From assembly GCA_015179125.1 (NCBI GenBank), contig WHVA01000449.1:30349-94348 (forward strand): a DNA stretch of 64,000 nt, written 5' to 3'. This DNA comes from Gautieria morchelliformis. Its lineage: Eukaryota; Basidiomycota; Agaricomycetes; Gomphales; Gomphaceae. The number at the start of each line of letters is the position of its first letter. The first letter of the stretch is position 1. Both the position numbers and the translations under genes were made by a program. A model generated the notes under the pieces. The model saw only the letters and a program-made list of their open reading frames with translations, was not told the DNA's origin and made no database searches. Positions 4,090-48,401 of this stretch are shown piece after piece.

Positions 4090-4342
4090 ACTTCGCCAGT
4101 GAAGGGATTGTCAAGACTTAGACAGCCCTTCCATGAGACCTTGCACGTTACATCGTCAAGAGTCGCGGGCTATTTCGCTATGACTGTAGATAGGGTGAGC
4201 CCCGTTTAGGCAAACCCTCTTACCTTGTGAACATTTATTGGTTCACCTATTCGCCGAACGGCATACTTATTCGCACAAGTTATTCAGGCATTCGCTGTGT
4301 TCACTAATACACGATATTAACACCTGAAAACCAATCTTGACA
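4090..4342 (+). repeat. Solo-LTR family S, copy S1 (3' fragment)
   Basis: The sequence ends in CCAATCTTGACA and matches the 3' ends of the complete copies at 5198-6472, 27337-29157 and 62281-63623. Gypsy-1 cuts its 5' part off. It lies in the protease region of Gypsy-2: gene sequence resumes on the far side at 4343. Confidence 0.75.
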
Positions 4343-5197
4343 GAAAAGTCCAGGGTTATGCCAAATCTCCTTAGGAACGGTGTCCCTAAGATAGCGTCGT
4401 AATATTCGACATTCGCTACGTCGAAATATCATCGTATGTCTCACGACCAAATTTGATGGTTGTGTTTGTTCCATAGTTGATCGTGGAATGGCTGCCTATG
4501 CAGGCTAGCTGCAGCGCGATTGGTTGCTCCAGGGAGAATGTCTTCATCCCTGTAGCTCACGTGAATTCGGGGGATAGCAGTACCCCTTCGCTGCCGCTAT
4601 CTAGCAGGCAGTGGGATTTTACGCCGTTTATTTCCCAGTACCCCGATAGGGTACGGTTCTCACTGCACGGGCGCGTTGGCCGCGTCCTGTGTTTGCTTTG
4701 GTGGTGATGCACCGGCTCGGCCACCTTGTCTGGAGTGACCGACATGCGTGCCGCCATGACCTTCGTGGCGGTTTTGTCCTCCAGCATGAATCTGATCATG
4801 CTGGACCTGTAGGTGGTGTCTTCCACCTCTTCGTCCCATTCATAGTATTGGGACGGCTTGGGGTCCCACTCTTCAGCGGGCGCGTCTCCGTTATCCAGAG
4901 TGTCGTTGGGTTGGGGATCACCCTCCCCCTCTTCATCAATCTGTTGAAGAGAATTTTGACCGGGATCCATGTCCGGATCCTCGGCCTCATCGTTGTGCCT
5001 CACGGCTGCTGTCCTTATACCAGACCTAAGCCGGGGGCACTCCGCCTTTTTGTGGCCAGGTTGGCCACATTCAAAGCACGTGGTGTTACTTTGGCTGCCG
5101 CTGGGCCTATCGTTAGGCCGGCCCAACGTTTTCGTTGGTGGGGCAGGTTGTGGGGACGACCCTGACGCTTGAGGCTGTTTAGCTTCAGGCGGGCGTC
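4343..5197 (-). pseudogene. Gypsy-2 gag C-terminus and protease
   Basis: A Pro/Gln-rich linker leads into the zinc knuckle CFECGQPGHKKAEC (CX2CX4HX4C), an acidic stretch, and the retropepsin start EINGVKSHCLLDSGSEG with the catalytic DSG. A TGA near 4555 interrupts the protease where a CGA Arg codon would keep it open. A later frameshift is needed to read on to ILGTPFLRRFGITLDF at about 4345, where S1 begins. The reading frame continues across the S2 insertion into the upstream gag part. Confidence 0.8.
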
Positions 5198-6472
5198 TGT
5201 CAAGATTGGTTTTCAGGCGTTAATATCGTGTATTAGTGAACACAGCGAATGCCCGAATAACTTGTGCGAATAAGTATGCTGTTCGGCAAATAGGTGAACC
5301 AATAAATGTTCACAAGGTAAGAGGGTTTGCCTAAACGGGGCTCACCCTATCTACAGTCGTAGCAAAATAGCCCGTGACTCTTGACGATGTAACATGCAAG
5401 GTCTCACAGAAGGGCTGTCTAAGTCTCGACAATCCCTTCGCTGGCGAAGGTGCTCCTTTGGAGCCCTTCGCCAACAGTACAGAAAATGGTTCGAAGGCTA
5501 AGGTAACGAAGATGAAGTATGAGAACTCACCAGTGATGCCTAAGTTCTCTGCTGGTTGAAGATAGAAATCTCCAGGAGAAGGCTCAAGACAATGATCACC
5601 GCGAGGTCAAGTTTGCACAAGATGGACGACGTATGATAATTGAACTGGAGAATATACATGCGAATGTAAACTACTTATATCGAATGCTCGTAAGGTATTA
5701 GCGAATAGGAAAGAGGCCATTGTGAGTCAGGGTCAGATAGGGGTGTGCAGTCATGATACTAAGTAGATGGAATAAACATACAATAGAGTGAGGGAAGAGT
5801 GTGAACATGAAACGACGGAGAGTAAAGGTGGCGAAGGCACTTATGGACAAAACCATGTCTTGGGACCCGCATACATGCTACCCTGCACGGACTCTTGGTC
5901 TACTGGGTTGATTCCGCATGACCTATGGAAGGGATGTCCTGCGAACATACTTTGACCATACAAACACCCAATGGGGTTGGATTAAGAAGACGATGGGGTT
6001 AATGATGAACCATCATGCTGGGTGAATGGTACCGATCGTATTTGATGGTGTGCCTGCTGGCGAATGATGCGAGCAGCGAATACCCATTTGGCGAAATGCA
6101 AGGAAGGGCAAACAGAGGTGACATAGGGGGGGAGAGGTCGAGGTGGAGGGCGAAGCCGAGCAAATACTGAGGAGGAGTAGCGAAAGGGGAAATGGGGATA
6201 CCAAGGTGCAGGAAGTACACAGGTCATGACAATCCAACTATCAGAACACCATCAGGAGAGGGTCGAGCAGAGGAGGTGGTAGACCCAGTGATGACTTGTC
6301 AAGTCAGTCCAAAGCCGTCGGTCGTGCGTTTAACGGCGTGGCGATGGTAATGGGCGCGAATCAGCGAACATCGGTTGCCGAACATGACAATGGCGATTGG
6401 AACGAACACGGAAATGGGGTGAGAAATGGCAGGACAGAGCCCCTGAGTATGAGGAATAAACGCGTCATGACA
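5198..6472 (-). repeat. Solo-LTR family S, copy S2
   Basis: A 1275-bp sequence bounded by TGTCAAGATT (left) and CATGACA (right), i.e. TG..CA. It is flanked by GCGTC (5193-5197) and GTGTC (6473-6477), a 5-bp target-site duplication with one mismatch. No internal retrotransposon genes accompany it. By the TATA-like element in copy S4 its transcriptional sense is on the minus strand. It interrupts gag of Gypsy-2. Confidence 0.8.
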
Positions 6473-14405: not shown

Positions 14406-16101
14406 AGAGGGACCAGATCTGACCAGCCTGAATGATGCACGTTCCCGTGATGACTGGCCACAGTGGGATGCATCTATCAAGTGAGAACTGGACCAGCATG
14501 CGATCCTGAGGACATGGGACCTCATGTAACCACCTGACGGTGCGAATATCGTTGGCAGCAAACTCGTATTCCATTATAAACATGATGCGGACAGTAAGGT
14601 GGTAAACCACAAGACCAGGCTCATTGCACAAGGCTTCATGCAGGCAGAAGGTATAGATTACACTGAAACCTTTTCTCCCACCGCCAAACTCTCCACCATA
14701 TGCATAATCACAGCAATCACAGTCAAAAATCCCTGGGAACTCGAACAAACCAATATCGACGGTGCATACCTTAATGCTCCGATCACGGAGACGGTCTACA
14801 TGCACCAGCAAAAGGGTATGAAGCTCCTGGAAAGGAGCACTATGTATGTGGGCTTAACCGTGCAATCTACGGACTGAAGCAGTCCGGGAGGGAATGGTAC
14901 AACATGCTGAGTGGCATCATGTACAGTTTTGGATTCACGCATTGCGAAGTCGAGCATGCGGTATTCCATAGGTACGCTGGACAGGATGTCCTCATCGTCG
15001 CAGTAGACATCGATGACCTGACCATGGCTGGCAACTCAAAGGACGTGATTCGGCAGTTCAAGGATGAGCTGCGCACCATCCTTAAGATTAAGGACATAGG
15101 GGATTTACACTGGTTGCTGGGGATAGAGGTGAAATGGGACCGCACGCTACGCACAATTTCATTCTCGCAGCATGCATACATACAAAAGATGTATGTGATG
15201 AGCTGTGTACCATCCTTAAGATTAAGGACATAGGGGATTTACACTGGTTGCTGGGGATAGAGGTGAAACGGGACCGCACACTATGCACAATTTCATTCTC
15301 GCAGCATGCATACATACAAAAGATACTCGAGAGATTCAATCTACAGGACGTGAATCCACTCGGCACCCCGCTTGATCCCCACCACAGGTTATCACTGTTC
15401 CAGTCCCCCTCCACCCCTTGCCAGTACCACAACATGCACAACGTACCGTATAGAGAGGCCATCAGGTCACTCATGTACATGGCTTTGGGCATGTGTCCGG
15501 ACATCTCATTCGCTGTGTCATTCCTGGCACAATTTATGCAGAACCCAGGAAGACTGCACTGGGAGGCAGTGAAACATGTCTTCCGCTACTTGAAGGGCAC
15601 AATGAACATGTGCCTCGTCATTGGCGGTTCACAGAGCACCTGGAGGCCTTCTCAGACGTGGACTGGGCATCCCAAGAGCACCGCCAGTCCATCTCTGGGT
15701 ACGTGTTCACCATAGATGGTGGAGCTGTCTCCTGGAGCTCTAAGAAGCAACAAATCGTTGCATTATCTACAACAGAGGCTGAGTATATCGCCACAACTCA
15801 TGCAGCGAAGGTGGCACTTTGGATACACACCCTTTTGGCCGACATCACACACCCACTAGAGAAACCCATTACTATCCACCTAGACAACATTTCCACCATC
15901 TCCATCATGAAGAATGAATACCACCTGCAGACGAAGCACATCAATATTCGCTATCATTTCATACACCACGCCATGTGGGAGGGACTCATAACCGTCGACT
16001 ATGTCCCGACAGATGATATGGTGGCCGACATGTTCACAAAAGCTGTTCAGCGACATAAGGTCTCACACCTGAATGCCATGGTGGGACTGCATTCAGCTTA
16101 A
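14406..16101 (+). pseudogene. Copia-D reverse transcriptase and RNase H
   Basis: RT blocks are seen as SKVVNHKTRLIAQGF, EQTNIDGAYLNAPI and VAVDIDDLTMAG (catalytic DD), and RNase H as TEAEYIATTHAAKVALW and VPTDDMVADMFTKAVQ before the stop at 16101. The frame changes near 14880 and again through a 134-bp tandem duplication. The C-terminal RNase H part (15493-16101) remains open. Confidence 0.85.
15063..15330 (+). repeat. 134-bp tandem duplication inside Copia-D RT
   Basis: Two adjacent near-identical copies (15063-15196 and 15197-about 15330) each start GATGAGCTG and end ACAAAAGAT. Because 134 is not a multiple of three, the duplication shifts the reading frame. Confidence 0.85.
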
Positions 16102-16108: not shown

Positions 16109-16526
16109 TGTTGGAGGTAGTACTGGTAAGTGTAGAATGCAGGGCCACGGCTGGCAACACGCGACCCGGACTCATATCTAGTTACTTGTCTCGGTCATAG
16201 TTGACCAAGGTAATATATCTGCTGGGCTCGTAGTTAGTGGCTCCTCAGTGAATCACCCATTCACTGAGGTGCATACCAGATTCTGTACACCATAGTGTAC
16301 CAATGCTCACCCCTGAGTTGTCACTACATAGGTACAGTACAGCTATATACACTGAGTGAATCACCCATTCACTGAGTTGTCACTACATAGCTACTGCGCA
16401 TAATCTAACACGGTCAGTGCTTGCCGTGTTGATGTCTGAAAGGAATCGGGGTGAGTAATGTATCTGATGCCGCTTCCTTTTAGTCCATGTAGACGCATAT
16501 TGGTATATGACATCGATACTCCAACA
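16109..16526 (+). repeat. 3' LTR of Copia-D
   Basis: 418 bp, starting TGTTGGAGGTAG right after the purine tract and ending GATACTCCAACA. The ends TGTTGGAG and CTCCAACA are inverted repeats. It contains repeated AGTGAATCACCCATTCACTGAG blocks. Confidence 0.75.
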
Positions 16527-16785
16527 ACATGTGCATATGCCACTGAGAACCTATGTACTGTGTACGGGGTGAGATCCAGGTGCAGACCCAATATGTGTGC
16601 GTAATCGTGTGTGAGAGTGCCTGCGAGCGCACCTCACTCGTACCACCATGGCGGATACTATAAGGGAAAGGGGCAAACTCTACCTACACAACACAAAGAG
16701 TGGGTGCTCATGTACGTGCTTCGGTCACCAGCGACGCACGTGTACTACGCATCCACATCCGTGATGATGGAAGGGAAGAGTCATT
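16527..16785. other. No gene seen
   Basis: Short unique sequence between the Copia-D LTR and the Copia-B 3' LTR. It ends in TCATT (16781-16785), the target-site duplication of Copia-B on this side. Confidence 0.5.
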
Positions 16786-16960
16786 TGAAGAGAGTAGATG
16801 ATGGTTGTGGATAAAGATGATAACATTCGACCAGCGAGTCTCAGAAAAATATACAGCGCCTGTAACTACTGTAACTAAGGGATTCGGTAGGAGATGAAAA
16901 TGGGAACCACAACCACGAGTGACCACAGGATGACTAACGGTTGAGCGATGGTATTCAACA
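16786..16960 (-). repeat. 3' LTR of Copia-B
   Basis: 175 bp, TGTTGAATACC to CTCTCTTCA on the minus strand. It differs at two positions, both CpG transitions, from the 5' LTR at 25837-26011. Its outer flank on the minus strand is AATGA, the same five bases that flank the 5' LTR. Confidence 0.9.
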
Positions 16961-17017
16961 GACCCCCCCGAGCGAAACAAATCAAAAAGAAATATGATGG
17001 GATACAGGAGGGGATGG

Positions 17018-18352
17018 TCACAACATGCCTAATTTATGAATCAAGAAACGGTGTTGAGCCAAAGGCAGGGCCTTCGTGAAAACGTCGGCGACGTTCTCAG
17101 CGGACCTGACATAGGTGATCTCGGCGTCACCATGATCGATGAGCTCGCCGAGCCAATGCCCCTCGACGCGGAAGTGCTTGGTGCGGGGGTGATGGGAAAC
17201 GTCCTGGAGATTGGAGATCGTCTGCATGTTGTCGCAGTAGATATGGATCGGTCCGGCAAGGGGCAGCCTAAGTTCCTGGAGGAAGTGGCGGACCCAAAGG
17301 GCGTGCTTGGCGCTAGGGATCAAGGCCATAGACTCGGACTCGGTCGTCGACAGAGTGATCCGGGTTTGCTTCTTAGATACCCACGCGGTAATACAGCCGT
17401 GATAAAAGCAGATAAAACCCCCCACAGAATGGGAGTCAGCTAGACCCGCGAAGTCGGCATTGGAATAGATCTTGATGAGGGGAGTGGAGGACGAGCGGCG
17501 CAACACAACGCCTGCGTCGCGAGTGCCCTTCAAATAGCGTATAACGCGTTTAACGGCCGTCCAGTGAGCCTCACTGAAGTCATGCGTGTGTTGGCTCAGC
17601 TGCTGGACAGCGAACGCAATGTCGGGGCGGGATCCTAGAACGGCATACATCAAGGAGCCGATCGCTTGGGCGTAAGGTGCGTCTGGTGCGGGACCACCAT
17701 CAGGGCGCGGCTTGAGGGTTTTGATGTCATGCAGGACAGGAGTGTTGACCGGTGGTGCTTCATCCAGATTGAAATGCTGGGCAATGACGTCGATGTAATG
17801 GCCTTGGGAGAGTTTAATGAAATCGTGATTTGGATCGATCTCGACCCTGATCCCGAGGATCTTGAGCATCTCGCCAAGGTCCTTCATAGTGAAATTAGAA
17901 TGGAGGAGGGTTTTAACACTCGCCATCAGCGTCTTAGAACTAGCAAAAAGACTGAGGTCGTCGACGTAAATAGTGATGATGGTGAGCCGGTCGCCGGTCT
18001 TTTTGTAGAAAACGCAGTCATCTGCGTGACACCGCGTGAAACCGTCATCGAGCAAGACCGTCGTGAGCTTCTTGTACCAGGAGCGGCCTGACTGCTTCAA
18101 ACCGTAAATAGCCCGGTGCAATTTGAGCACGCGACTCGATCCATCGTCAAAGCCGTCCGGCTGGCGCATGTATATCTCCTCATCTAGAGTAGAATTAAGA
18201 TACGCGCCTTTGACATCCATCATCTCGATCTCCCATCCCTTTTGGATGGTGATAGCGGGGATGAGCCGGAGGCTGTCTAATTTGACAACCGGTGATGTGA
18301 CCTCAAAATAATCCATGCCAGGTCGTTGCGTGAACCCCTGCGCAACTCACTA
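17018..18352 (-). pseudogene. Copia-B pol fragment: reverse transcriptase and RNase H
   Basis: Uninterrupted from the break at about 18352 to the stop at 17018. RT has EMMDVKGAYLNSTLDEEIYM, IYGLKQSGRSW and the catalytic TIYVDDLSLFA. RNase H has LSTTESESMALIPSAK, YCDNMQTISNL and ENVADVFTKALPLAQHR before LIHKLGML. No internal stop is present, so this half decayed little. It lacks only the first RT blocks and everything upstream, which rules out a functional protein here. Confidence 0.9.
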
Positions 18353-18486
18353 GTCGAGGGGCGATGATTGATCAATCAACCATGACATTATCTTGAATGA
18401 GTGAGCGGGCACTGATCGTGCAGTCCAAGGGAACGGGAGAGCCCAGTGGGGAGGCTTTCCAACTGGTGCTCCTGTAGAGTGAATGT
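18353..18486. other. Unique sequence between Copia-B break and Copia-A
   Basis: 134 bp of non-repetitive DNA with no gene. It ends with AATGT (18482-18486), the target-site duplication of Copia-A copy 1. Confidence 0.5.
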
Positions 18487-18710
18487 TGTTAGTAATCGGG
18501 ATGATGACACCGCCGAGGCAGAGCCGGCACGCATTTAGCCGGAAGTTCGAGATCGCTCTCGGCCCCGGGTTGCTGGTGCGCCGGCATCGCATCGGCACAG
18601 CAGCTCGAAGAGATTGGTAATACAATGGACATCATATTTTGTATATAAAGGCAGAATGATCTACTTGAGATTGTAGTATAATCAGTTTATTATATCTCCT
18701 TCGTTCCACA
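18487..18710 (+). repeat. 5' LTR of Copia-A copy 1
   Basis: TGTTAGTAATC to CTTCGTTCCACA, with a TATA-like TATATAAAGG at about 18648 that probably drives the element. It is followed at once by GGTTATGGGCCCC, the initiator-tRNA half primer site. Confidence 0.9.
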
Positions 18711-18800
18711 GGTTATGGGCCCCAGCCATAACTAAACTACTACAGACCTAGCTTACTCCAACCACGCTCTATACTCCAACGACTCAATAACCAATCGACG

Positions 18801-21349
18801 ATGTCGAGTAGCAACAACACATACAAGATCGACCCCTTGAACGGGGATAATTACGCGGCGTGGCGCCGGCGGCTCGAGTGGATACTCGATGACTTAGATC
18901 TGTGGGACGTGGCTATCGGCAGGGAGACAGAACTGAGACCGGCAGATGTCGACAATGTCACTGCGACCGAGCAGCAGGAAATCGACGACTGGAGAAGGAA
19001 GGACAAGCAAGCTAGAAAAGAGATTTGTCTCAGAGTCGCCGATGAACAGCTAGTTTACATCAATCAGACAATGTCTGCATTTGCTGTATGGACTAGTTTA
19101 CAAGCTATATTCGAATCTAAGGGAGCAGTGGGAATCGTAAATCTCCGAAGAGATTTCTTCCGGACGCTTGCCGAAGACGGCGCGAACATGGAGGAGCACA
19201 TACGCAAGCTCCGCGGCATTCAACAGGAACTGAATGCGCGGGGACATTACATCAGTGACACCGAGTTCTCGAACATGTTGCTGACGTCATTACCAGATTC
19301 TTGGTCAGCATTTATTACGGCAGTAAACGCCAGTGGAGCCGGGACGACAGCTGATATATTAATAGCTCGAGTCCTCGATGAGGATCGAGCACGGAAAGCT
19401 GGATCGGCACGGCAGACGGTGCTTAAGGCGCAACAACGTCACAGGACCAAGAAAGATGACTCAGGAGCAACAAAGGGAAAATGCCGAAATTGCGGCAAGA
19501 AGGGTCATTACATGAAAGACTGTTGGGCGAAAGGGAGGGCCAAGCACCGAAATGGTTCAAATCAGGGAACAAAGAAACAGTCAAACAAGCGGAAGAAAAG
19601 GACTTCGCATTTGTATCTAAGGAGGTAGCATACAGTGCTATATCTGCATCCGACTGGCTAGCCGATTCAGCGGCAACAACACATATAGCTCGAAACCGAA
19701 ACGATTTCGCTAGCTATGCCGAGGAACCATCAGAAATTGAAGGAATTTCACCCGGTGCGGTGCTACATACACAAGGCCGAGGCACTATATACATGGAATT
19801 CAAGATCGGCGCCAAGATGAACACGATCGAACTACGTGACGTCAAGCATGCACCGGATGCACCGAACAACCTTATCAGCGTAGGGCGTCTAACTGATAAA
19901 GGCAACACGGCCACATTTTCAGGCACTGGCATCGAATTCAAATCACGTGCCGGAGTTACCTTCGCACAGGGACAGAAGCGCGGGCGGCTGTTCTGTATGA
20001 AGGCACGGGTCACTCGATCAGTCGAGGCACAGGACTTTGCCACAGCGGCAAAGGGACGGTCATGGGACAAATGGCACAGGATACTCGGGCACGTCAACAT
20101 AAACTCGATTAAAATGTTGAAATCTAACGATCTAGTTACTGGACTTGAGATCGACGAGTCAAACGAGCTGAGCCAGTGCAAGGCATGCATACAAGGCAAA
20201 CGGCATGTGGAGCCGTTCCCCAAAAGAGCCGATGACACTGTAGAACAGGTCGGTGACCTAACAGTATCCGATGTATGGGGGCCTGCCCAGACCGAGGGAC
20301 CATCACGTGAAAAATACTTTTATTCTTTCATGGACATCAAATCGAGGTACACTGCAATCTATTTTGGGAGCACCAAAGATGAAGCGCTCAAACACTTCGA
20401 GACGTACAAGGCATTCCTCGAGACCCAAACAGGTCAGAAACTGAAGAGGTTTCGCTCAGATAATAGAGGGGAATATGTCAATAAAAATTTCAAGGAATTT
20501 TGTGCAAAATATGGCATTATCATGGAGACCACAGCTCCATACTCCCCAGCCCAGAATGGAATCGCCGAACGACTCAACCGGACCTTACTCGAGCACGCGC
20601 GGGCAATGATATTTGCCAAGAACCTGCCAAAAATACTCTGGCCCGAGGCCATGGCTTACGCGTGTTATATCAAAAATCGATCACCCACGCGAGTGCTTGG
20701 AGATGACGCAATGCAGTTCCAAGCACTATTCGGCAAGAAGCCAAACATAGCACGTCTAGAGGAATTCGGGACAAATTGCTGGGTTATGGTGCCGGATCAA
20801 CGTCGAGCCAAACTTGATCCAAAGGCAGAAGAACATATCTTCATCGGAGTAGCAGAACATGCAAAAGCCTGGAGGTATTACAATAAAGCCTCAAAGCATG
20901 TTCAAATTTCGAGAAATATTACATTCGACGAAAACGACAACAGACTCTACCCTATCCCAGATAACGACGATGACGACACGGCACCGCTTGAGGGGGAGCA
21001 CTCACTGCGCGAGCATGTGCCGGACCTGATCCCATCTACCCCGCAGATGTCATCACCCCAGACGACGCCCGTTCCTGATCCACCTGAACAAGCGCCAGCT
21101 CCACAGATTCGACGGAGCGCGCGTATCACTCAAAGACCGGATTACCGGAAACTGAATGATTCAGGACGCACCGAGCAGGTTTACATAACGAGAGAAATCG
21201 TCACTGAACCTGAGAATTACAGAGCAGCGGTATCACGTGATGATGCGCCGATCTGGGAGAAAGCGATGGAAATTGAAATGGATCAACATAAGACATTAGA
21301 AACATGGGAATTAACAGAACTACCACCTGGACGAGTAGCTATCGGTTGC
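18801..21349 (+). pseudogene. Copia-A copy 1 gag, protease, integrase, start of RT
   Basis: Gag starts at 18801 (MSSSNNTYKID), with a UBN2-type domain and zinc knuckle CRNCGKKGHYMKDC. A deletion of about 10 bp at about 19530 shifts the frame, and the same protein continues in the frame seen from 19481. Then follow the protease (WLADSAATTH), HHCC zinc domain (WHRILGHVN, CKACIQGK), integrase D,D,E (TVSDVWGPA, FRSDNRGEY, QNGIAERLN) and the first RT blocks, until TGA at 21350 replaces the CGA (Arg) of GCRWVYAV in copy 2. Confidence 0.9.
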
Positions 21350-22799
21350 TGATGGGTATACGCCGTCAAAACGCAACCGGATGGACAATTAAAGCAAGGG
21401 TTGTGGCTCAAGGATTCACACAGAGGCCAGGGATGGATTACTACGAGATAACTTCACCTGTGGTCAAGTTCGATTCACTACGTGTTCTATTAGCGATCGC
21501 AAACACACTCGATTGGGAAATCGAAATGATGGATGTCAACGCCTATCTCAATTCAACCATAGATGAGGAGATCTACATGCGTCAGCCCGACGGCTTTGAT
21601 GATGGATCTGGACGCGTTCTAAGAATATACAGAGCGCTCTACGGACTCAAGCAATCAGGACGAGCTTGGCATCAGCGCTTATGCAAATTACTACTCGACC
21701 TCGGCTCCCATCAAAGTACAGCCGACGAATGTGTCTACATCAGGCAAGATAAGGACTCAATCGAAGTCATATCAGTATACGTGGACAACTTCGGACTATT
21801 TGCTGATTCCAAAGGAGGGATGATTAAGCTCAAGGGGGAGCTTCATGGAAAATTCCCCTTAACAGATTTAGGAGAGATGAAGAAAATCTTGGGAATTAGA
21901 GTTGAGAGGAATAGGGATGAGGGAACACTGATCATGTCTCAAGGACATTACATCGACATCATACTTGATCGATTCAACATGGCTACGGCACATTCCGTAT
22001 ATACAGCTCTGCATAAAATGATCAAACTCACGACACCTATGGACTCAACAGGTCCAACTGCCGAAGTACCCTATGCCAAAGCAATCGGATCGCTAATGTA
22101 TGCAGCACTCAGCACGTGACCTGATTTGGCCTTTACCGTACAACATCTGAGCCAATTCACTACTACTTACGGAGCCGAGCACTGGACGGCGATCAAACAC
22201 GCGCTCAGGTACCTCAAGGGGTCACGTGACGACGGCATAACCTTCCGACAAGACGCTGGTCTCGACCTCGAAATATTTGTTGACTCGGATTATGCTAATA
22301 GAAAGGACGCACTGTCTATTAGCGGCTATGTAGCTATACTAGGAGGGGGAGCCATTGCATGGAGTTCGAAGAAGCAGCGAACGATCGCATTATCTACTAC
22401 GGAGGCCGAATACATGGCACTTACCGAGGGTGCCAAGCAATTGATCTGGCTGAGGCGCTTCATCGAGGAGCTAGGAATAGATCAAGCCCAGCCCACGTCA
22501 CTTCGATCAGACAATCTAGGCGCCATTACACTATCGCATGACGCAACGTATCATGCACGTACCAAACACATCAATGTCGCATATCACTTCATCCGTGAGA
22601 AAGTGGCCTCTCACGAGGCATCACTTACGTACGTACCAACGAAGGAGAACGTAGCGGACATATTTACAAAGGGATTGGATTTACACCAACATAGGTATCT
22701 ATTAGGGAAATTAGGATTTTGTCGAAGGGACTTCTCGCTGAGGGGGAGTGTTAGTAATCGGGATGATGACACCGCCGAGGCAGAGCCGGCACGCATTTA
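21350..22799 (+). pseudogene. Copia-A copy 1 reverse transcriptase and RNase H
   Basis: RT core with YYEITSPVVKFDS and VISVYVDNFGLFA. The catalytic YVDD of copy 2 reads YVDN here. There are small deletions near 21390 and at the MDVNAYLN site (KG lost), and a TGA at about 22118 where copy 2 has CGA in STRPDLAF. RNase H (TEAEYMALTEGAKQL, SDNLGAITL) continues to 22799, with the last codons inside the 3' LTR as in copy 2. Confidence 0.9.
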
Positions 22800-22972
22800 G
22801 CCGGAAGTTCGAGATCGCTCTCGGCCCCGGGTTGCTGGTGCACCGGCATCGCATCGGCACAGCAGCTCAAAGAGATTGGTAATACAATGGACATCATATT
22901 TTGTATATAAAGGCAGAACAATCTACTTGAGATCGTAGTATAATCAGTTTATTATATCTCCTTCGTTCCACA
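22749..22972 (+). repeat. 3' LTR of Copia-A copy 1
   Basis: 224 bp, same ends as the 5' LTR. Five differences from it, each explicable as a C-to-T or G-to-A change at a CpG. Confidence 0.9.
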
Positions 22973-23894
22973 AATGTAAGTGCTTGAGATTGAAAATTCG
23001 AGATGCAAAGTAATGGACTGGTCAAGTGGACCACACCCACCCACTGTAGAAAACTCCGACATTAGATTTCAGTACCTTTTACACAAACGGCAATAATCAG
23101 TACCTTTGAGCACTGACAAATCAGTGCTCAAAAATATCATTAAATGAACACCAAAAATAAGTGCTTTTGAGCACTGATTTTCAGATACTAAGAAACATGC
23201 AGGTATGTGAAAAAAAAAAAAAAGAAACACGATCGCCCCCTTCACTCCGCCGAGCGCATGTTAGACCATTAGGCGTACAGAGCAATTTACTCTTGTTATC
23301 GAACCGAGGCCGCCAAGTAATTAGCGCCGCCGCCACTATAGCATGAAATAATTGCTCACCAACATCGTGGCGGCCAATGTACCTTGTACGCGCGTCGGAA
23401 TTTTTCCCCCAAGTAATTTGAATCTCCGACCTGCTTGAATTCTAACTCGTCTCTTCCCACCATGACCACGGCCAACAGAAAACAAACTATAATGCTTTCC
23501 CTCATCAATTTTTTGATCGTGCCCAGTTATGATGGAGCGTACTAGCAGGAAAATGGGGAGTATGTGCACAATCATGATGTTATCGCGTGATCCCACTCAA
23601 CACCTGCATCAAAAAGCTCTTCTTACAAATAATATCGTGGGGTTGGGTAAAATCATGGTGGTTTAGAGGGTGCCTCCTGGTAAGCTACTCTTTCATTGAA
23701 AATACCATGCATATACTCAATATATTATTGCTACGTGCCCCTCTGCTGCTCTCGCTCTTGCACTCTGGGTCTTGCTCTCGCACCATCTCCCCTCGCCTGC
23801 TCATTCTCACAATAGACCGCTCCCGCCCTCGCTCTCGCCATATGTCCCCTCGGCTGCCCTTGCTCTTACAATAGACCACTTCTACTCCCACTCA
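22973..23894. other. No gene; AT-rich stretch with a hairpin
   Basis: Starts with the target duplication of Copia-A. It holds a perfect 12-bp hairpin (23105-23132), a related GAGCACTGATTTTCAG block near 23170, and low-complexity C/T-rich sequence (23730-23880). No coding region was recognised. Confidence 0.5.
23105..23132. repeat. Perfect 12-bp hairpin
   Basis: TTTGAGCACTGA, CAAA loop, TCAGTGCTCAAA. Related sequence recurs in inverted sense beyond the DnaJ pseudogene near 25055-25090. Confidence 0.8.
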
Positions 23895-23895
23895 T

Positions 23896-25010
23896 ATGGA
23901 GGTTGCGAGAGGTGAGTGTGGGGGCTGGGCTGTCGCAAGTATTGGGAACCATGTTGCATGCCTTATATGCCTACCTTCCTCATCGCTCACATGCTCACAT
24001 TCCGATCCTTCCAGCATACGCAGTCCTATCAGACCCCCAGGTGCGCCAATGAACATCTCTACTATTACTTAACTCAACCTGACCACTGTATTTCTTTTTT
24101 TGTACAGAAACGCGGCCTTTATGATCGACATGGGGAGGTACGTGTTGCAATTCGCCCTTGTCATTGTTCTTTGAGCTCCCTTTATTTTACTTCGTCACTT
24201 ATCATTTTATACTTGCCCGGACGTGAGCTGACAAATATTACCCTTCCCCCTCATCCAGGAAGGCCTGACACAACATGAAGGCGGTCAGCACCCCAATCCC
24301 TTCGATATGTTTTCATCCTTCTTCGGTGGCGACGGACGTGAGTCGTTTCATTGTGAATTTATCGTTCTGCATGCTCAAAATGATACTTTGCCATATAATA
24401 CTCCTCGTACTCATGTGCCATATCATCCATGACACTTGTGATCCTGTGACACTGCAGCCCAACAACAGGAGGTCTGCCGCGGGCCCATGATGACAAGCGA
24501 CTTTGAGGTGAACCTCGAGGATATGTACAAGGGTGTCGAGATCGATATAGGTTCCAAACATCGTCTTTGCATGATTTCTGCACTGACAATTATGCTTTCG
24601 AAGCCCATTCCGATCCTGCCTTTGGCTTTCATCTCCATTTCTCATGATCCTGTGACTCGGTATCCAGTTCATGATTAACAAAAAGGTCCTCTGTGACCAC
24701 TTCCGCAGCTCCGGAGGACTCGCACATCCAGACGTGTTCCACGTGCTCGTTCCACACATCCAGCACTACACGCTCAATGTCCCCGTGGGCATTGCCAAGG
24801 GCAGTAAGTTCATGTTTGAGGGCGAGGGCGACGAGAGCCCGGACTCGGAGGCGGGCGACGTTGTTATATGCGTCCTGGGCAGGAAGAACAAGGGCGGTTA
24901 GCGGCGGATGGAGATGAGTTTGTATAGCACCGAGAGCATTGGGGTTGAGGAGGTGTGTGGGGCGACGTTGGATGGGTTGGGACATAGCTTTCATTCTGTC
25001 TTTCAGTAAT
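23896..25010 (+). pseudogene. DnaJ/Hsp40 co-chaperone fragment (ER Scj1-like)
   Basis: J-proteins of this group assist Hsp70 in the ER. Spliced pieces read MEVARAYAVLSDPQ (23896-23911 with 24015-24040), KRGLYDRHGE (24108-24137), EGLTQHEGGQHPNPFDMFSSFFG (24259-24337), then TSDFEVNLEDMYKGVEIDI (about 24490-24550) and a C-terminal exon (about 24665-25010). GT donors and AG acceptors are preserved, so this was a genomic copy, not a processed one. The J-domain N-terminus with the HPD motif is missing and the cysteine-rich zinc finger is largely lost. A TAG at about 24899 follows LGRKNKGG where the family continues, and the RRMEMSLYSTESI remainder still reads on behind it. A non-functional fragment. 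Confidence 0.75.
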
Positions 25011-25836
25011 AGAAAGCACTGTTATATTGTGTTCTAAAGTACCATTTATAAGTAACTTAAGAACTGAAAATCAGTGTTCTAGGGCACTGAAAGCGGACAT
25101 TCTAGCTACTAGATTTCGGTACCAAGCTTATCGAGAGGAAGCGTCAAAAATCTCCTCCCTGGATACTTATTATCAGTAACTTGGGCACTGAAAAATTGGT
25201 GCGTAATGTACTTATATTAAGTGCCCCGAGTTACTGCAGTGCACCTCCCAACCGGACAGGTTTGAGTGAGCTGAGGAAACTTGGTGGAGACGTCCTAGCC
25301 ATTGGATCAGGTCTACCAGTCCGACACACCATAACTTCGGGATGCTTTAGAAGTCTGCGGACAACAATGGGAACTTCTTGACAGGGTTCGTATATGACAA
25401 AGTGACATTGAAACAAGGCATTGAAAGTGAAACCATCCGCCAATGGGAGCAGAGCAGACCTGCCACGACTGGGAAAATTTAGTTGCCAGTCTGAGAAAAG
25501 ACGCGCAGATTGAGCATATCCCTAAAATGTAGTTACAAAATCACCTACATGACGCCTCTTCGGTACTTTACGAGAATCTCTGAATGCTTGCCTGAATTCA
25601 CCAACCTTCTCAAGGACAGCTGCGAAGACGTATAGGCTAACTAGAAGGCCCAGGGGCAGGTTTTTGCCGAGGAACTACGTGAATCGTACACGTACCGCTC
25701 TCACCTTATTTGACTGTGAAGTTGACAGTGATGGTCAACTGATATTGCTGATATTGAATATAATAAAAGCCTTGAAGCACCTCGCCTAACTTGTTAGCCT
25801 TTTCATAGTTGGAGGTGTAAAAGACAATGACAATGA
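25011..25836. other. No gene seen
   Basis: AT-rich sequence with blocks related, in inverted sense, to 23040-23190. No coding region. It ends with AATGA (25832-25836), the target-site duplication next to the Copia-B 5' LTR. Confidence 0.5.
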
Positions 25837-26011
25837 TGTTGAATACCATCGCTCAACCGTTAGTCATCCTGTGGTCACTCATGGTTGTGGTTCCCATTTT
25901 CATCTCCTACCGAATCCCTTAGTTACAGTAGTTACAGGCGCTGTATATTTTTCTGAGACTCGCTGGTTGAATGTTATCATCTTTATCCACAACCATCATC
26001 TACTCTCTTCA
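25837..26011 (+). repeat. 5' LTR of Copia-B
   Basis: 175 bp from TGTTGAATACC to CTCTCTTCA, followed immediately by GGTTATGGGCCCC (primer site). Preceded by AATGA. It differs from the 16786-16960 LTR only at two CpG sites. Confidence 0.9.
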
Positions 26012-26090
26012 GGTTATGGGCCCCGCGCTCTAAACCATAATCCAAAGTAAAGTAATAAAAAAAATAAAACTTCCTGTAACAATCGCCGTT

Positions 26091-27336
26091 ATGTCTGCCC
26101 TCACACGGCCGAGCTCCCTATACCGGATCGAACCACTCACCGGAGACAATTATCCCACGTGGAAGGAGAAGATGCGATGGATCTTGCTTGAGCAAGATCT
26201 ATGGGAACATGCATCGGGTCAGGCGACGAAACCAGTGCCGGCCGACGACAAAAATGTAACGGCCCCGGAGAAACAAGCGATCGCAGATTGGATGAAAAGA
26301 GATCAACAGGCTTTCACGGCAATCAGCTTGCGTATCAGTGATGATTACCTAGTCTATACATACGGTGCCACGACGGCACGCGAGGTGTGGCTAGCCCTGC
26401 TTACAATCTTCGAAGCAAGAGGGCCGTTGGGTATAATAAATGTACGTCGGGATTTCTTCCGCACTTTCATAGCCGAAGGCGAGAACATATACAAAAGCTG
26501 CGCAGCCTCCAACAGCAGCTGCACACACTTGGTGATCTAGTCAGCGATCGCGACTTCTGCAACGCGCTGCTCACCTCACTCCCCGGCTCCTGGTCCACGT
26601 TCCTTACAGCGATCAATGCCGCCCTTCCCACGCTCTCCTCTGACGTACTCATAGCTCGTGTTCTCAAAGAGGATCGAACTCGGCGCTCCACTCACGGCAC
26701 GGAGACGGCCTTGAGGGCGCAGGACAAGCGCGGAAAGGGGCGCAATGGACATAATGATGGCGGTGCCACAAAAGGGAAGTGTAATAATTGTGGCAAAAAG
26801 GGGCATTGGGTCAAAGACTGCTGGGCCAAGGGTGGCGGCAAAGAGGGGCAAGCGCCGAAGTGGTGGAAAGATCCAGCTAAGAACTCAAATGCAGACTCTA
26901 TTAAACAAGCTACCGAAAGCAAAAGCGCTGCTGACGACTTTGCGTTCGCCGCCATAGAGTCCGCGGACCCCGAGCTGGGCGACCAGTCATCCATTGCTGG
27001 AGATCTATCGTGTCGCGCCACCATCTCTGCATCAGAATGGCTGGCAGACACGGGATGGACGACACATATCGCCCGAAACAGGGGGGATTTTATTGAGTTC
27101 AGTTCTGACCCATCAGAGATTGAGGGCATTGCCCCCGGGAGCCCCTTGAAGACTTTAGGCCGCGGGATTGTCCAAATGGAATTCAAGGCTGGCGATCGCA
27201 CGTTTACGGTGAGACTAACGGACGTGAAGCACGCTCCCGATGCACCAAACAACATCCTCAGCGTCGGGAGGCTCACGGACATGGAGCATGTAGCTCTGTT
27301 CACCAATAACGGTGTGAAATTCCGCTCCCAGTCAGG
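26091..27336 (+). pseudogene. Copia-B gag and protease
   Basis: Gag starts at 26091 (MSALTRPSSLYRIEPLTGDNY), with a UBN2-type domain. A single-base frameshift lies near 26490. The zinc knuckle CNNCGKKGHWVKDC is near 26780, and the protease motif (SEWLADTGWTTHIAR) follows, with DTG as catalytic triad. The frame stops at the S3 insertion after FRSQSG and resumes at 29158 with TVFAEGHKIGC, so the two parts were once continuous. Confidence 0.85.
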
Positions 27337-29157
27337 TGTCAAGATTGGATTTTGGGCGTTAATATCGCATGTTAGTGGCGAATGCCCAAATAGCATGTGC
27401 GATCTAGCGAATCGCCCAGCGAACAGTACCGAAGAGGTAAGGGATAAATGGTAAGAGGTTTACTCGAAAGGAATTCGCCCTGATCTACAGTCGTAGCGAA
27501 ATAGCCCGTGGCACTTGACGATGTAACGTGCAAGGTGTCACAGAAGGGTTGTCTAAGTAGCGACAATCCCTTCGCCAGCGAAGGTGCTCCTTCAGAGCCC
27601 TTTTCTGACAGCACAGAAAATAACTCGAAGGCTAAGGTAATGAAGATGAAGTATGAGAACTCACCAGTGAGGCCTAAGTCCTCTTCTGGTCGAAGATAGA
27701 AATCTACAGAAGAAGGCTCAAGATGATAGTCACAGCGAGGTCAAGTTTGCACAAGATGGACGTATGATAATTAAACTGGAGAATATACATGCGAATGTAG
27801 ACTACTTATACCGAATGCTCATATGGTGCTAGCAAATAGGAAAGAGGCCATCTGGATTCAGGATTGGATAGGGGTGCGCAGTCAGGATACATAATAGATG
27901 AAATAGACATACAATAGAATGGAAGAGGGGTGCGAACATGAAACGACGGAGAGGAAAGAAGGCGAAGGCCCCTATGTACGAAAACACGCCTTGGGACCTG
28001 CATATACACCACCCTGCACGGACTCTTCATCTGCTGGGTTGGTCCCACATGACCTATGGGTAGGATGCCCTGCGAATGCATTCTGGACATAGGAACACCC
28101 AAAGGGGGTTGAGTTGAGAAGATGATGGGACCAGTGATGAACCATCAACCCGGGTAAAGGATGTCGATTGTGTTTGATGGCGTGCCTGCTGGCGAATGAT
28201 GCGAGTAGCGAAGGGTCATATGGCGAATGTGGCGAATAGCAAATGGAGCGAGGAGTGAATGGAGCGAGGAGTGAATGGAGCGAGGAGTGAATGGAGCGAG
28301 GAGTGAATGGAGCGAGGAGTGAATGGAGCGAGGAGTGAATGGAGCGAGGAGTGAATGGAGCGAGGAGTGAATGGAGCGAGGAGTGAATGGAGCGAGGAGT
28401 GAATGGAGCGAGGAGTGAATGGAGTGAGGAGTGAATGGAGCGAGGAGTGAATGGAGCGAGGAGTGAATGGAGCGAGGAGTGAATGGAGCGAAGACACGCG
28501 AACATGGAAGAGTGGTGAAAGGGACAACAGGGATAGCTGGGTACAAGAAATAAATGAGTCATGACAGCCTGCACCTCCTTGCACTTTATGATAGGACCAG
28601 TGATGAACCAACAATCCAGGTAAAGGATGTCGATCGTGTTCGGTGGCATGGCTACTGGCAAATGATGCAAGTAGCGAATGGCCAGTTGGCGAATGTGGCA
28701 AATAGTGAATGGGGCAAGGGGTGAATGGAGCAAAGCCAAGCGAACATGGAAAAGTGGTGAAAGGGAAAACAGGGATAGCTTGGTACAAGAAATGAATGTG
28801 TCATGACAACTGTGTAGTGAAAACTTCAGCGAAGCTAATTCGTCCTGCGCTGCAGTGGTATGAGTCCCATTGAGTCCAACCTGCATGGAGGCTGCAACTG
28901 ACACTATCCAAATGCATCCTGAGCATGTGGGTCTGTCATGGAGTGGGAGTTTAACAGATGATGGGTTCTATGATGGATGAGGGCTCCAATACCTGGCGTG
29001 CTGGCAGGAATGATGCGAATAGCGAATGCGAATAGCGAATGCGAAAGCAGTATGGCGATGAATATTTTGGCAAGATATTCGCTGGTTCAGGAAGTCGTTC
29101 GCTGGTTTGGGAAGTCATGTGCTAAGGGATGATTCGCAGAATAAACGAATCATGACA
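27337..29157 (-). repeat. Solo-LTR family S, copy S3, enlarged by a minisatellite
   Basis: 1821 bp, TGTCAAGATT to ATCATGACA, flanked by perfect 5-bp duplications TCAGG (27332-27336 and 29158-29162). It is longer than the S2 and S4 copies (about 1.3 kb), partly because of a 16-bp tandem array at 28241-28494 and a second diverged copy of that neighbourhood. No coding content. Confidence 0.85.
28241..28494. repeat. 16-bp minisatellite, about 16 copies
   Basis: Nearly perfect head-to-tail copies of GAATGGAGCGAGGAGT inside solo LTR S3, with one unit showing GAATGGAGTG. Because three units make 48 bases, all three minus-strand frames stay open and give spurious Ser/Leu/His-rich ORFs. No spacers, so not CRISPR. 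Confidence 0.95.
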
Positions 29158-30352
29158 TCAGGGACGGTCTTCGCCGAGGGGCACAAGATAGGGTGCGTGT
29201 ACCTCATGCGTGCCCGGATCCGCCCTGCCATTCAGACAGATTTTGCCGCTGTGGCTAAGCCGAAGTCCTGGGACTCCTGCATCGCATCCTCGGGCATGTC
29301 AACATCGGCGCGATCAAATTGATGAAAGCGCGCGATCTTGTCACCGGGATGGATGTAGACACGGCCGCGCCGGTGACACAATGTGTTGCTTGCATTCAGG
29401 GCAAGCATCACGTGGAACCGTTCCCCAAACAGTTGGAAGACGCTGCTACATTGGTAGGCGATCTGACCGTCTCCGACGTTTGGGGACCGGCGAATACAGA
29501 GGGCCTGGCGCGGGAACGGTATTTTTATTTGTTTACCGATGCCAAAAGCAGGTACTCCACCATCTATTTCAGCCACACCAAGGACGGCGTCCTTGATCGT
29601 TTCAAGGAATACGCCGCCCTGGTTGAAACACAGACTGGGCTCCAGCTTAAGCGCCTGCGCAGCGATGGAGGCGGTGAATATATTAACGGTCCATTCAGAG
29701 ATTTCTGCGCCCAGAAAGGGATCATAATGGAATCTACCGCCCCTTACTCACCAGCCCAGAATGGCATTGCCGAACGCCTGAATCACACCTTGCTCGAACA
29801 TGCTCGCGCCATGACGCTTTGCGAAACAAGCGCCCAAGATCTTATGGCCCGAAGCCGTCGCCTACGCCTGTTATATCAAGAACAGGACGCCCACTCGAGC
29901 CCTTGGCGCAGACATGACGCCATTCGAGGCCTTTTTTGGCAAGAAACCTGACATCGGGAGGTTGGAAGAATTCGGTAAAAAGTGCTGGGTCCAAGTTCCG
30001 GACCAGCGTCGTACTAAATTAGAGCCCAAATCCGAGCAACACATTTTTACCGGCATCGCACCTAATGCTAAGGCTTGGCGTTTCTACAATGTCCACACGC
30101 GCCACATCCAGACCTCTCGCAACGTCATCTTCGATGACGTTGACAACGCCATTCATCCCGTCCCTGAGGACGACGACCTGGTGGTTGGGCCGCCTGCAGG
30201 GAACACCACCAGGGCCGCCCAGCCGGTCCCAGCCCCCGCTTCAGCTGCCACGCCTCCAGTCGAGACCACTGCTGTGCCGGTGGCTGTGGAACCGAAGGCG
30301 GATCCGAGGCGCAGCACCAGGATCGCGGGTAGACCCGTGCCCGATTACAAGC
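29158..30352 (+). pseudogene. Copia-B integrase
   Basis: Continues the protein cut by S3. A zinc-domain remnant (CVACIQGKHHVEPF) is followed by integrase D,D,E as TVSDVWGPA, LRSDGGGEY and QNGIAERLN, then the conserved MTPFEAFFGKKPDIGRLEEFG region and a proline-rich linker ending GRPVPDYKQK at about 30352. Frame breaks near 29270 and 29830 disable it. About 90 codons of early RT are missing between this end and the RT half at 18352. Confidence 0.85.
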
Positions 30353-31077
30353 AAAAGGCCTGCTTTTACCACTGGCTTGGAATGTTACACCATTCATATA
30401 GTGCAGCCTTGGCGAGAACATTCCCGAGCTACATAGGGGAGACGAGCTAGGTGCCACGATCCCCACCGGGTGTCCTCGCTGCCACAGTACGGCAAACTAG
30501 GGTATGCATGAGCAGCGTGATTGACAGGATGAAAGCGCGCGGTCTGTGTAAAGCCACTACATAAATCACCAGAACTGATAGAAAACTCAACTCATGACAC
30601 CAGACTCGGAACATAGCTCATCAGTGCAGATCTGAATCCTTCAAGTTGATAGCCAGCATCTTGTACGTCATGGATGAGCTGCCACTGGCTGCTTAGGACC
30701 GCCTCTTTCAGCAGTGGTAAGAGTACACGAAGCAATGATTCTATTATCGACATTGGTGAATTACCTTGTCTACTAAAACTATTCCCGAATTTGCTCAGGC
30801 TCAAAAACTACGTAGCTGACGATCTTACATTGGCACTCTCTAATGTGGCTATCATGGGCCACGGCTAGCTTCAATTACATGTAAACTACGAAGCTTGAAG
30901 ACTCGAGTGCGGTGCAAAAAATCGTGCTTCCTTTATTTTGAGCATCTCCATCCTTCAGAAAATTAGGGCACATCATTATATATTCATTATATATCGGAAC
31001 GTATATATAAGTACAGGAAGGATCATACCATTCGAACTCCTCTGCGTTGCCTCTCCACGACGTGAATGTTCGTATAC
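30353..31077. other. No gene recognised
   Basis: Sequence between the Copia-B break and the left end of the first palindromic module. A short minus-strand frame (30592-30804) resembles nothing I know and has no supporting signals. AT-rich near 30970-31020. Confidence 0.5.
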
Positions 31078-31410
31078 AGACGCAAGAAAGACGGAAGGGA
31101 CTGGTGCGTACATACAACGTCATACATGACGATGCCAGGTCAAATCCGAATATAGGCAAAAAGATACGAAACCGAAACAGTATGTAGGTGACGAAGCATA
31201 TTATAAAATCGTCCGATGGAGGGAAAAATGTATTACGAAACATAATAGTCCATCATCAAATACAAAGAAACGTCGGATCTATATTTCTTCGACAAGGGAA
31301 TGTCCACGTGCAGATGTCCTATCATGAAGAGCGGTTAGCTGACGGGACGAGCCATAAACCTAAAACTGCACGGTGTCAACAACGTACTTATCATAAGGCG
31401 AAGATGCTGT

Positions 31411-32069
31411 TCAATCAAGCCACAGATCAGTGCTGCAAGGCCCATCATTTTCCCATGACCATGTAAGCCACGCTTCGTACGAGAGCTCGTCGTTCACGAT
31501 GTCGGGGTAGACTTTACTTGAGAGGACAATGCGGTCGGCCTCGCGACCCGTCTCTGTCGCCAACGCAGTTACTAGTTCGTCCCATGGGGGCACGGCGGGG
31601 AACTCAAAGACATAGGGTGGCTCATGCTGGTCATGCTGAGATATATACACATCGAAGCCGAACAGATCCTGCAGGTAAGCGGTTAGGACGGTAGTTGTGG
31701 ATGCAAGGGGTGACGCACATGACTACCACGGAACAATCCAAAGTTCGGTGCTAGCGACATGGTTTCGACGCTGCTGCTCGATAAGTTGGCATGCGACAGG
31801 GGGGCTTCTCGTTCGGACTGCTCAAAAGACGAGGCAGACGTGGAGTCGAATTCTTCTTCTAACCCACCAGGCGTATGGGGCGCTTCGATGGGGGAAATAT
31901 ATGAGTGGGGTGGAGCTCGAGCGAACAAGTCTGAGCTGTCGGCGAGGACAGGCATCTGTCTCGTATGGGTATCTGGCAGGATAGGGATGCCTGTAGCCTC
32001 TGAGGTACGGAGCTTGAGCTTAGAGATGCAAGAGCGTATAGAGTTCTTCAAGTGGGTGAAAGTCAACAT
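31411..32069 (-). CDS. Gene Y, copy A (unidentified two-exon protein, 202 aa)
   Basis: Exon 1 is 32069-31719 (start MLTFTHLKNSIRSC), a 50-bp intron 31718-31669 begins GTGCGT and ends CAG, and exon 2 is 31668-31411 (stop after STDLWLD). The intron is in phase 0 and at the same place in all four copies. The first 115 residues are Ser/Pro-rich and probably disordered. Exon 2 looks folded (YVFEFPAVPPWDELVTAL, LSYEAWLTW). No signal peptide or membrane segment. I do not recognise the family and assign no function. Frames are intact. It is head-to-head with copy B at 32820 and may share the intervening promoter region with it. Confidence 0.6.
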
Positions 32070-32819
32070 TATCGGAGTCGCAAAGGAGAGGGTGAAGGGT
32101 CAGAAGACAAGAGGATGGGTCGCTGTACGTTTATGCCACGGTATAAATGGCAGCCTCGATTTTCGGAAGTTGTAGACATAAGCCGTACTCGAGACATGTC
32201 GCGGACAGGCGGCGATCATTGGGGCCCCGAGACCAGGCCCAGCTCCAAGGTAAGATGGCGAAGGGGAAGTATACAGTACATATCGATCAGTGAGGTAAGT
32301 CTTATTCCACAAGGTATAACCATATGGTGAGAGTCAAGACGGGAGTTGTTGAGCGTCTATGGGCGTTAGATGCTGGTTGGTACAGCCAGACAGTTCGTTC
32401 GTACTGTATTTTCAGGTCACAGATCCAGGCGCAACGGCTGGGGTGTCCTAGAATGTCTCAGGCTGACTCCGCGACCTCGGGATTCGGGGAGCTCGCCAGT
32501 GCCTACAAGGCCTGAGAAGCGACTCCGCTCAACGTTGAACGTTGAACTCCCGTCTTGACTCTCACCATATGGTTATAACTTGTGGAATAAGACTTACCTC
32601 ACCGCTGCATGCTTCCCCTTCGCCATCTTACCTTGGAACTCGGCCTGGTCTCGGGACCCCAATGATCGCGGCATCGCCGCCTGTCCGCGACATGTCTCGA
32701 GTACGGCTTATGTCTACAACTTCCGAAAATCGCGGCTGCCATTTATACTGTGGCATAAACGTACAGAGAGCCATCTTCTTGTCTTCTGACCCTTCACCCT
32801 CTCCTTTGCGACTCCGATA

Positions 32820-33469
32820 ATGTTGACTTTCACCCACTTGAAGAACTCTATACGCTCTTGCATCGCTAAGCTCAAGCTCCGTACCTCAGAGGCTACAGGC
32901 ATCCCTATCCTGCCAGATACCCATACGAGACAGATGCCTTTCCTCGCCGGCAGCTCAGACCTGTTCGCTCGAGCTCCAGCCCACTCCCTCATCGAAGCGC
33001 CCCATACACCTGGTGGGTTAGAGGAGGAATTCGACTCCACGTCTGCCTCGTCTTTAGAGAAGTCCGAACGAGAAGCCCCCCTCCCAGATGCCAGTTTATC
33101 GAGCAGCAGCATCGACACCATGTCGCTAGCTCCGAACTTTGGATTGTTCCGTGGTAGTCATGTGCGTCACCCCTTGCATCCACAACTACCGTCATAACCG
33201 CTTACCTACAGGACCTATTCGGCTTCGATGTGTATATATCTCAGCACGACCAGCATGAGCCACCCTATGTCTTTGAGTTCCCCGCCGTGCCCCCATGGGA
33301 CGAACTAGTAACTGCGTTGGCGACAGAGACGGGTCGCGAGGCCGACCGCATTGTCCTCTCCAGTAAAGTCTACCCCCACATCGTGAACGACGAGCTCTCG
33401 TACCAAGCGTGGCTTACATGGTCCCGGGAAAATGATGGGCCTTGCAGCACTGATCTGTGGCTCGATTGA
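32820..33469 (+). CDS. Gene Y, copy B (unidentified two-exon protein, 199 aa)
   Basis: Exon 1 32820-33161, 50-bp intron 33162-33211 (GTGCGT...CTACAG with a CATAAC branch-like site), exon 2 33212-33469. Inverted copy of copy A with scattered substitutions and a 3-codon deletion in the low-complexity part of exon 1. The ATG at 32820 was chosen because the upstream frame is not conserved between copies, and a TATA-like ATTTATAC lies about 80 bp upstream. Intact frames in three of four copies suggest real genes, not random ORFs. Function unknown. Confidence 0.6.
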
Positions 33470-34372
33470 ACAGCACCTTCGCCTTATGAGAGGTACGTTG
33501 TTGGCACTGTGCAGTTTTAGGTTTATGGCTCGTCCCATCAGCTAACCGCTCTCCATGATCTAGTAGGACATTTGCACGTGGACATTCGCTCTCTGACGCC
33601 GGATCCGACGTTTATTTGTATTTGATGATGGACTGAGTAATTAATGTTGTATTCATTTTTCCCTCATTTTATACGTTAATATGCTTCGTCACCTACATGC
33701 CGTTTCGGTTTTCGCATCTTATCTTTGCCTAGATTCCGATTTGACCTGGTGTCGTCATGTATGGCGTTGTATGTACGCACCAGTCCAAGTTCACCCTCTC
33801 TAGTTCTTGCGTCTGTGTACGAGTCGGCGCGCGAGTTGTCCAATGAGAGATCGATCGAACACTGTTTCGTTGAGATAAACAATGGGACGATTGTACTCCA
33901 TGCATGCATTGACTGATTCGGGAACCATTACTCGCCGAGTATCAGAGACACACGCTCTCAAAGTGCCGAAGGGAGCAAAGAATTTGAATGCGTGGTTGTC
34001 TGGCCCAGGACTGATTTGATAGTATACATATTCGGTAGAATTTATTACTTTCGTGATGCTGTACCTGCAGGCACGCTCGCCGTCGGTGCGCCCGCGCAGC
34101 CCAAACCCTGAGCAACATAGATCCGGTTTTAAGCCCCGAGTTTACTGTAAGGCCAGGCTGATGTTGTGTACCGCGATGAGCAGTATCTACGACCCCAATT
34201 TTGTACGTTGCATTTTTTTTGTCCCGGTACAATCGCAGTCGCAACCCTAAACCATAGGCCATGCCACAATTCGGTAGCTTCCAACTGAATCTTCCTCTTT
34301 GCAAACGACATTGATATTGGACGGCGGCCAAGCAAGAAACGGTACAGTATGAGACTAGGTGGGGTTCGTAAC

Positions 34373-42263: not shown

Positions 42264-43223
42264 GTAACGAACCCCACCTAGTCTCATACTGTACCGTTTC
42301 TTGCTTGGCCGCCGTCCAATATCAATGTCGTTTGCAAAGAAGAAGATTCAGTTGGAAGCTACCGAATTGTGGCATGGCCTATGGTTTAGGGTTGCGACTG
42401 CGATTGTACCGGGACAAAAAAAAATGCAACATACAAAATTGGGGTCGTAGATACTGCTCATCGCGATGCACAACACCGGCCGGGCCTTACAGTAAGCTCG
42501 GTGCTTAAAACCGGATCTATGTTGCTCAGGGTTTGGGCTGCGCGGGCGCACCGACGGCGAGCGTGCCTGCAGGTACAGCATCACGAAAGGAATAAATTCT
42601 CGTACCGAATATGTATACTATCAAATCAGTCCTGGGCCAGACAACCACGCATTCCAAGTCTTTGCTCCTTCGGCACTTTGAGAGCGTGTTTCTCTGATAC
42701 TCGGCGAGTAATGGTTCCGAATCAGTACTTCAATGTATGCATGGAGGATACTGTACAATCGTCCCATTGTTTATCTCGACGAGACAGTGTTCGATCGATC
42801 TCTCATTGGACGACTCGCGCGCCGACTCGTACACAGATGCAAGAAAGACTGGAGAGGGTGAACTTTGACTGGTGCGTACATACAACGTCATACATGAAGA
42901 CGCCATGTCAAATCCGAATCTAGGCAAAGATAAGATACGAAACCGAAACGGTATGTAGGTGACGAAGCGTATTACTGTATAAAATCGTCTGATTGAGGGA
43001 AAAATGAATACAACATTATTACTCAGTCCGTCATCAAATACAAATAAACGTCGGATCCGGCGTTAGAGAGCGAATGTCCACGTGCAAATGTCCTACTAGA
43101 TCATGAAGAGCGGTTAGCTGATGGGACGAGCCAGAAACCTAAAACTGCGCAGTGTCAACAACGTACCTCTCATAAGACGAAGATGCTGTTCAATCGAGCC
43201 ACAGATCAGTGCTGCAAGGCCCA

Positions 43224-48322: not shown

Positions 48323-48401
48323 CGTCGATCGGTATTGAGTTATTGGAGTATAGAGCGTAGTTAGGTTTGTAGTAGTTTAGTTATGCGCGGGGCCCATAAC
48401 C

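Follow-up and report, generated by a model that had tools for sequence, protein, structure and literature searches.

The window analysed here (the whole 64,000-nucleotide stretch of Gautieria morchelliformis DNA) was dense in retrotransposons and DNA transposons. Two pieces of a Ty1/copia-type element, Copia-B, lay in it about 7.5 kb apart on opposite strands, with the following features in and between them.

16781..16785, plus strand: outer target-site copy beside the Copia-B 3' LTR, TCATT (AATGA in element sense)
16786..16960, minus strand: Copia-B 3' LTR, 175 bp
16961..16969, minus strand: putative Copia-B polypurine tract, GGGGGGGTC, adjoining the 3' LTR, assigned by position and G-rich composition
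17018..18346, minus strand: Copia-B 3' half, reading from reverse transcriptase (RT) through the RNase H region without interruption until the stop codon
18346..18347: presumed left inversion junction, RT against non-Copia DNA
18347..18486: non-Copia DNA from the left junction to Copia-A1, the presumed inner edge of the inverted tract
18487..22972, plus strand: Copia-A copy 1 (Copia-A1), in the presumed inverted tract; LTRs different at 5 of 224 sites, target-site duplication (TSD) AATGT
25832..25836, plus strand: outer target-site copy beside the Copia-B 5' LTR, AATGA
25837..26011, plus strand: Copia-B 5' LTR, 175 bp
26012..26023, plus strand: Copia-B primer binding site, GGTTATGGGCCC, adjoining the 5' LTR; 12 bases identical to those of Copia-A1
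26091..27336, plus strand: Copia-B gag, zinc knuckle and protease region; one frameshift
27337..29157, plus strand: later DNA transposon nested in Copia-B, 1,821 bp; ends TGTCA...TGACA, TSD TCAGG
29158..30354, plus strand: Copia-B pre-integrase, integrase and SH3-like domains, stopping short of RT; two frameshifts
30354..30355 (approximate): presumed right inversion junction, post-integrase linker against non-Copia DNA

Anatomy of the two Copia-B halves

As a yardstick for both pieces, we used the intact Copia-A2 element of the same window (44131-48622; 4,492 bp), which has one frame of 1340 codons and LTRs that are identical over 221 bp. The left piece was homologous to Copia-A2 residues 875-1314 with zero internal stops, and Pfam matched it to positions 39-243 of the 244 positions of the RVT_2 profile. 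RNase H was not named by Pfam in this piece; we apply the label because the alignment reaches the terminal part of Copia-A2. The original prediction had placed RT, RNase H and a 3' LTR on the minus strand at 16786-18352; this content was found, with the break moved to 18346 and RNase H resting on the Copia-A2 match.

The right piece corresponded to residues 1-787 of Copia-A2 and bore three frameshifts. Pfam identified gag, zinc knuckle, Pol_BBD, pre-integrase, rve and SH3-like domains in it, with rve (31.4 bits against a cut-off of 32.6) and pre-integrase each slightly below their cut-offs. We take the Pol_BBD match to be the protease region, and we assign GGTTATGGGCCC to the anticodon region of the initiator Met tRNA. 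The expected content of 5' LTR, gag, protease and integrase at 25837-30352 on the plus strand was thus present, with the break at about 30354, but the nested DNA transposon had been overlooked. Because the primer binding site and the polypurine tract stand at the expected ends, the two pieces are the true 5' end and the true 3' end of the element.

Read across the two halves, Copia-B has the gag-protease-integrase-RT-RNase H order of Ty1/copia elements (Pseudoviridae), integrase falling within the 5' half and RVT_2 within the 3' half, in an order given by the Copia-A2 alignment. It also shares with them TG...CA LTRs, a 5-bp target duplication, a primer binding site after the 5' LTR and a polypurine tract before the 3' LTR. 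It differs from them in lying in two pieces on opposite strands without about 261 bp of early RT, and in the DNA transposon and three frameshifts borne by its 5' half. Scans for relatives of the Copia-B RT or integrase pieces in viral contigs, and of the RT piece or Copia-A2 in prokaryotic genome contigs, returned 1, 1, 7 and 9 pattern-matching stretches, none of which was confirmed; this absence says little, as it is expected for a eukaryotic element.

Fit of the halves, LTRs and target-site copies

The two halves were complementary. The left half (1,561 bp), the right half (2,692 bp, leaving out the nested transposon and one of its target copies) and the segment absent between them (Copia-A2 residues 788-874, 87 codons, about 261 bp) sum to 4,514 bp, compared with 4,492 bp in Copia-A2. 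The loss of about 90 codons of early RT at the breakpoints, as originally proposed, therefore agrees with the 87 codons obtained by alignment. The missing segment was also searched for within the window, and the only matches (E up to 0.001) were Copia-A1, Copia-A2 and two remoter elements with 36% and 41% identity, none of them of Copia-B type.

As predicted, the two 175-bp LTRs (16786-16960, minus strand; 25837-26011, plus strand) differed at two sites (98.9% identity), and AATGA in element sense stood at both outer LTR edges (TCATT at 16781-16785; AATGA at 25832-25836). For comparison, the LTRs of the two Copia-A insertions diverged from each other by about 10%, and both Copia-A copies in the window carry TSDs of 5 bp (AATGT and AGTCT). 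When 5-mers were drawn at random from the window, the chance of agreement was 0.0010 for any pair and 0.0014 for AATGA (about 1 in 700-1000). These values bear on the possibility that two truncated Copia-B copies inserted independently and that their outer 5-mers are alike by chance. The region is indeed crowded with nested and truncated elements, and the damage to the halves is unequal, with three frameshifts in the right half and zero in the left; a split of this kind has a chance of 0.27 at equal rates, so the imbalance is weak evidence against a single age of the halves. Two independent insertions would, however, demand the flank coincidence of 0.001-0.0014 together with complementary truncations that leave a single gap of about 261 bp and with near-identical LTRs, and we consider them unlikely.

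Both Copia-B LTR differences were CpG to TpG/CpA changes, with the decayed form in the 5' LTR each time. In the Copia-A1 LTR pair, 5/5 differences were likewise CpG-type, an adjacent TG/CA pair being taken as two decays of one CpG. Because both Copia-B differences are of this type, as are all five in Copia-A1, they have the appearance of decay that followed insertion, not of divergence between copies, although two sites are few. The LTR-pair differences of Copia-A1 and Copia-B taken together were CpG-type transitions in 7/7 cases, compared with 93/242 substitutions between whole Copia-A1 and Copia-A2, a contrast which suggests that methylated CpG decays in the source genome.

Junctions and origin of the split arrangement

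No Copia match was detected in 18347-18486 or 30355-31069 (E up to 0.001). When these stretches were compared with the rest of the window at the nucleotide level (E up to 0.5), only two 14-base matches were obtained, one of which was a self-palindrome near the left break (18365-18378), while the other, at 30528, recurred at 29321 in the Copia-B pre-integrase region. An assembly misjoin of a normal Copia-B element would be favoured by surroundings rich in repeats, but beyond these 14-base matches the non-Copia sides of the breaks had no second copy in the window. A misjoin would also require the loss of about 260 bp, and the window contains zero N bases; we regard it as extremely unlikely.

Around the second 14-base match, some 170 bp beyond the right break, 22 bases (30528-30549) resembled Copia-B pre-integrase (29321 on) with a score of 32, which was reached by 1 of 300 shuffles for a match chosen post hoc. 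Of the nine codons at 30528, six agreed with Copia-B pre-integrase (E 3.8). The resemblance may be due to chance or may be a crumb of another Copia element. A lenient comparison of nine Copia queries with four stretches (E up to 10) gave many further weak matches. The lowest E among the matches listed was 0.002, for a match with stops near 16411-16515 beside a neighbouring Copia element, and the next-lowest among them was 0.015 at 18403-18453; we treat all these weak matches as chance or as possible remnants.

Local alignment of 18320-18486 with 30320-31100 gave scores of 13 (direct) and 12 (inverted), compared with shuffle means of 11.9 and 11.9 (200 shuffles per orientation; maxima 21 and 17), and hence no shared sequence, microhomology of a few bases being beyond the reach of this comparison. 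A chimeric Copia copy was found at neither junction, with similarity to Copia-A2 ending at 18346 and near 30354. Among reading frames of 30 codons or more, those across the joined flanks of the empty site (39, 47, 55 and 69 codons) and across the presumed second break site (36 and 63 codons) included none of note.

The junctions bear directly on a mechanism in which ectopic recombination between two opposed Copia-B copies inverted the tract, and the partner halves were later deleted at both junctions. Exchange of this kind has been reported for Galileo in Drosophila, where two chimeric copies flank the inversion and the target-site copies are swapped (PMC2775673). Such recombination would also predict the same 5-mer on both outer Copia-B edges, and the 22-base resemblance past the right break could be counted in its favour. 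Since Copia similarity ends at both junctions, however, it needs two extra deletions; moreover, the 22 bases correspond to pre-integrase, whereas a partner remnant at that position should run from RT to the 3' LTR. We judge this mechanism very unlikely. The Copia-B locus and the Galileo inversions are alike in that target-site copies tell which outer flanks were once together, and differ in that Copia-B is one halved element, with a second copy found at neither junction (PMC2775673).

Autointegration of Copia-B into itself was rejected by reasoning, given the 7,485 bp that separate the left break from the right target copy and the position of the target-site copies outside the LTRs.

The matching outer 5-mers, the LTRs, the complementary halves on opposite strands and the non-Copia DNA beyond both breaks support the original prediction of one Copia-B insertion halved by an inversion. 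The best explanation, to which we assign a probability of roughly 0.87, is a single insertion that was later split by an inversion through two-break joining, with about 260 bp lost. Joining of two breaks is preferred over recombination between copies because no Copia-B sequence continues past the breaks apart from the 22-base resemblance. Under the two-break explanation, Copia-B (about 4.5 kb) would have entered the minus strand at AATGA/TCATT and duplicated 5 bases. A double-strand break in its early RT and a second break in the DNA to its right would then have been rejoined with the segment between them turned over, presumably in a single event repaired by end joining, and about 260 bp of RT would have been lost. 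The 3' half would thereby have stayed at 16786-18346, while the 5' half would have moved to 25832-30354 together with the target-site copy beside it; the ancestral order at the locus would accordingly be the uninverted one. The DNA transposon entered the 5' half at some time after the Copia-B insertion, and the arrival of Copia-A1 in the tract could have preceded or followed the inversion.

Alternatively, the break within Copia-B might be a product of the element's own life cycle, such as a discontinuity in its DNA that stayed unrepaired at about the time of integration; insertion and inversion would then be nearly one event. No support for such an origin was obtained: the right half contains a single six-G run, which begins at 27081 within the protease region and away from the break. 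We hold this origin to be exceedingly improbable.

A split element that, like Copia-B, keeps a target-site copy on each half documents a small inversion by itself: it orients the ancestral order and sets the inversion later than the insertion. Split elements of this sort are usable for assembly tests and for dating rearrangements without a second genome. The case is an ordinary rearrangement with an unusually neat record and a fresh instance of a known phenomenon; neither the element type nor the mechanism is new. In the portions available to us of the literature on retrotransposons, inversions and CpG decay, no paper describing this locus was recognised.

Contents of the presumed inverted tract and other elements

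The inverted tract today measures 12,008 bp, in line with the proposed 12-kb inversion. Its size at the event may have been about 5.7 kb (5,691 bp), because Copia-A1 and the nested DNA transposon could both postdate the inversion. Comparison of the LTR differences of Copia-A1 (5/224) and Copia-B (2/175) gave a Fisher p of 0.47, and these differences give no order for the two insertions.

Copia-A1 and a DnaJ pseudogene had been expected in the inverted segment, and both lie there, the DnaJ fragment (24665-24898) matching DnaJ_C only below the Pfam cut-off (E 5e-5; 23.8 bits against 26.6). Two weak PDB matches, MAS5 among them, were also obtained for this fragment. Within 23160-25088 it lies between 33-nt inverted arms that are 79% complementary, and it may be a gene segment that a transposon carried along.

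The DNA transposon nested in Copia-B contains a tandem array (28242-28491) in which a 16-bp unit is repeated 15.6 times. It belongs to a family with TGTCA...TGACA ends and target duplications of 5 bp, and relatives of it were present at 5198-6472 (duplication GCGTC/GTGTC, 4/5) and at 62281-63623 (duplication CCGAT, 5/5), with an inverted partial copy of the family at 4091-4344.

A second candidate split element, consisting of adjacent minus- and plus-strand Copia pieces at 10.3-16.1 kb, was rejected because its pieces overlap in RT (Copia-A2 residues 806-957 and 813-940). A different Copia element carries a 134-bp tandem duplication with 96% identity within its RT region, at 15063-15324. A large inverted-repeat element occurs twice in the window, at 31070-33822 and at 42827-50048. 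As the latter copy is broken by the young Copia-A2 (TSD AGTCT, LTRs identical), the former may represent an empty site for the Copia-A2 insertion. An inverted pair of about 500 bp with 96% identity was located at 51584-52091 and 59228-59717.
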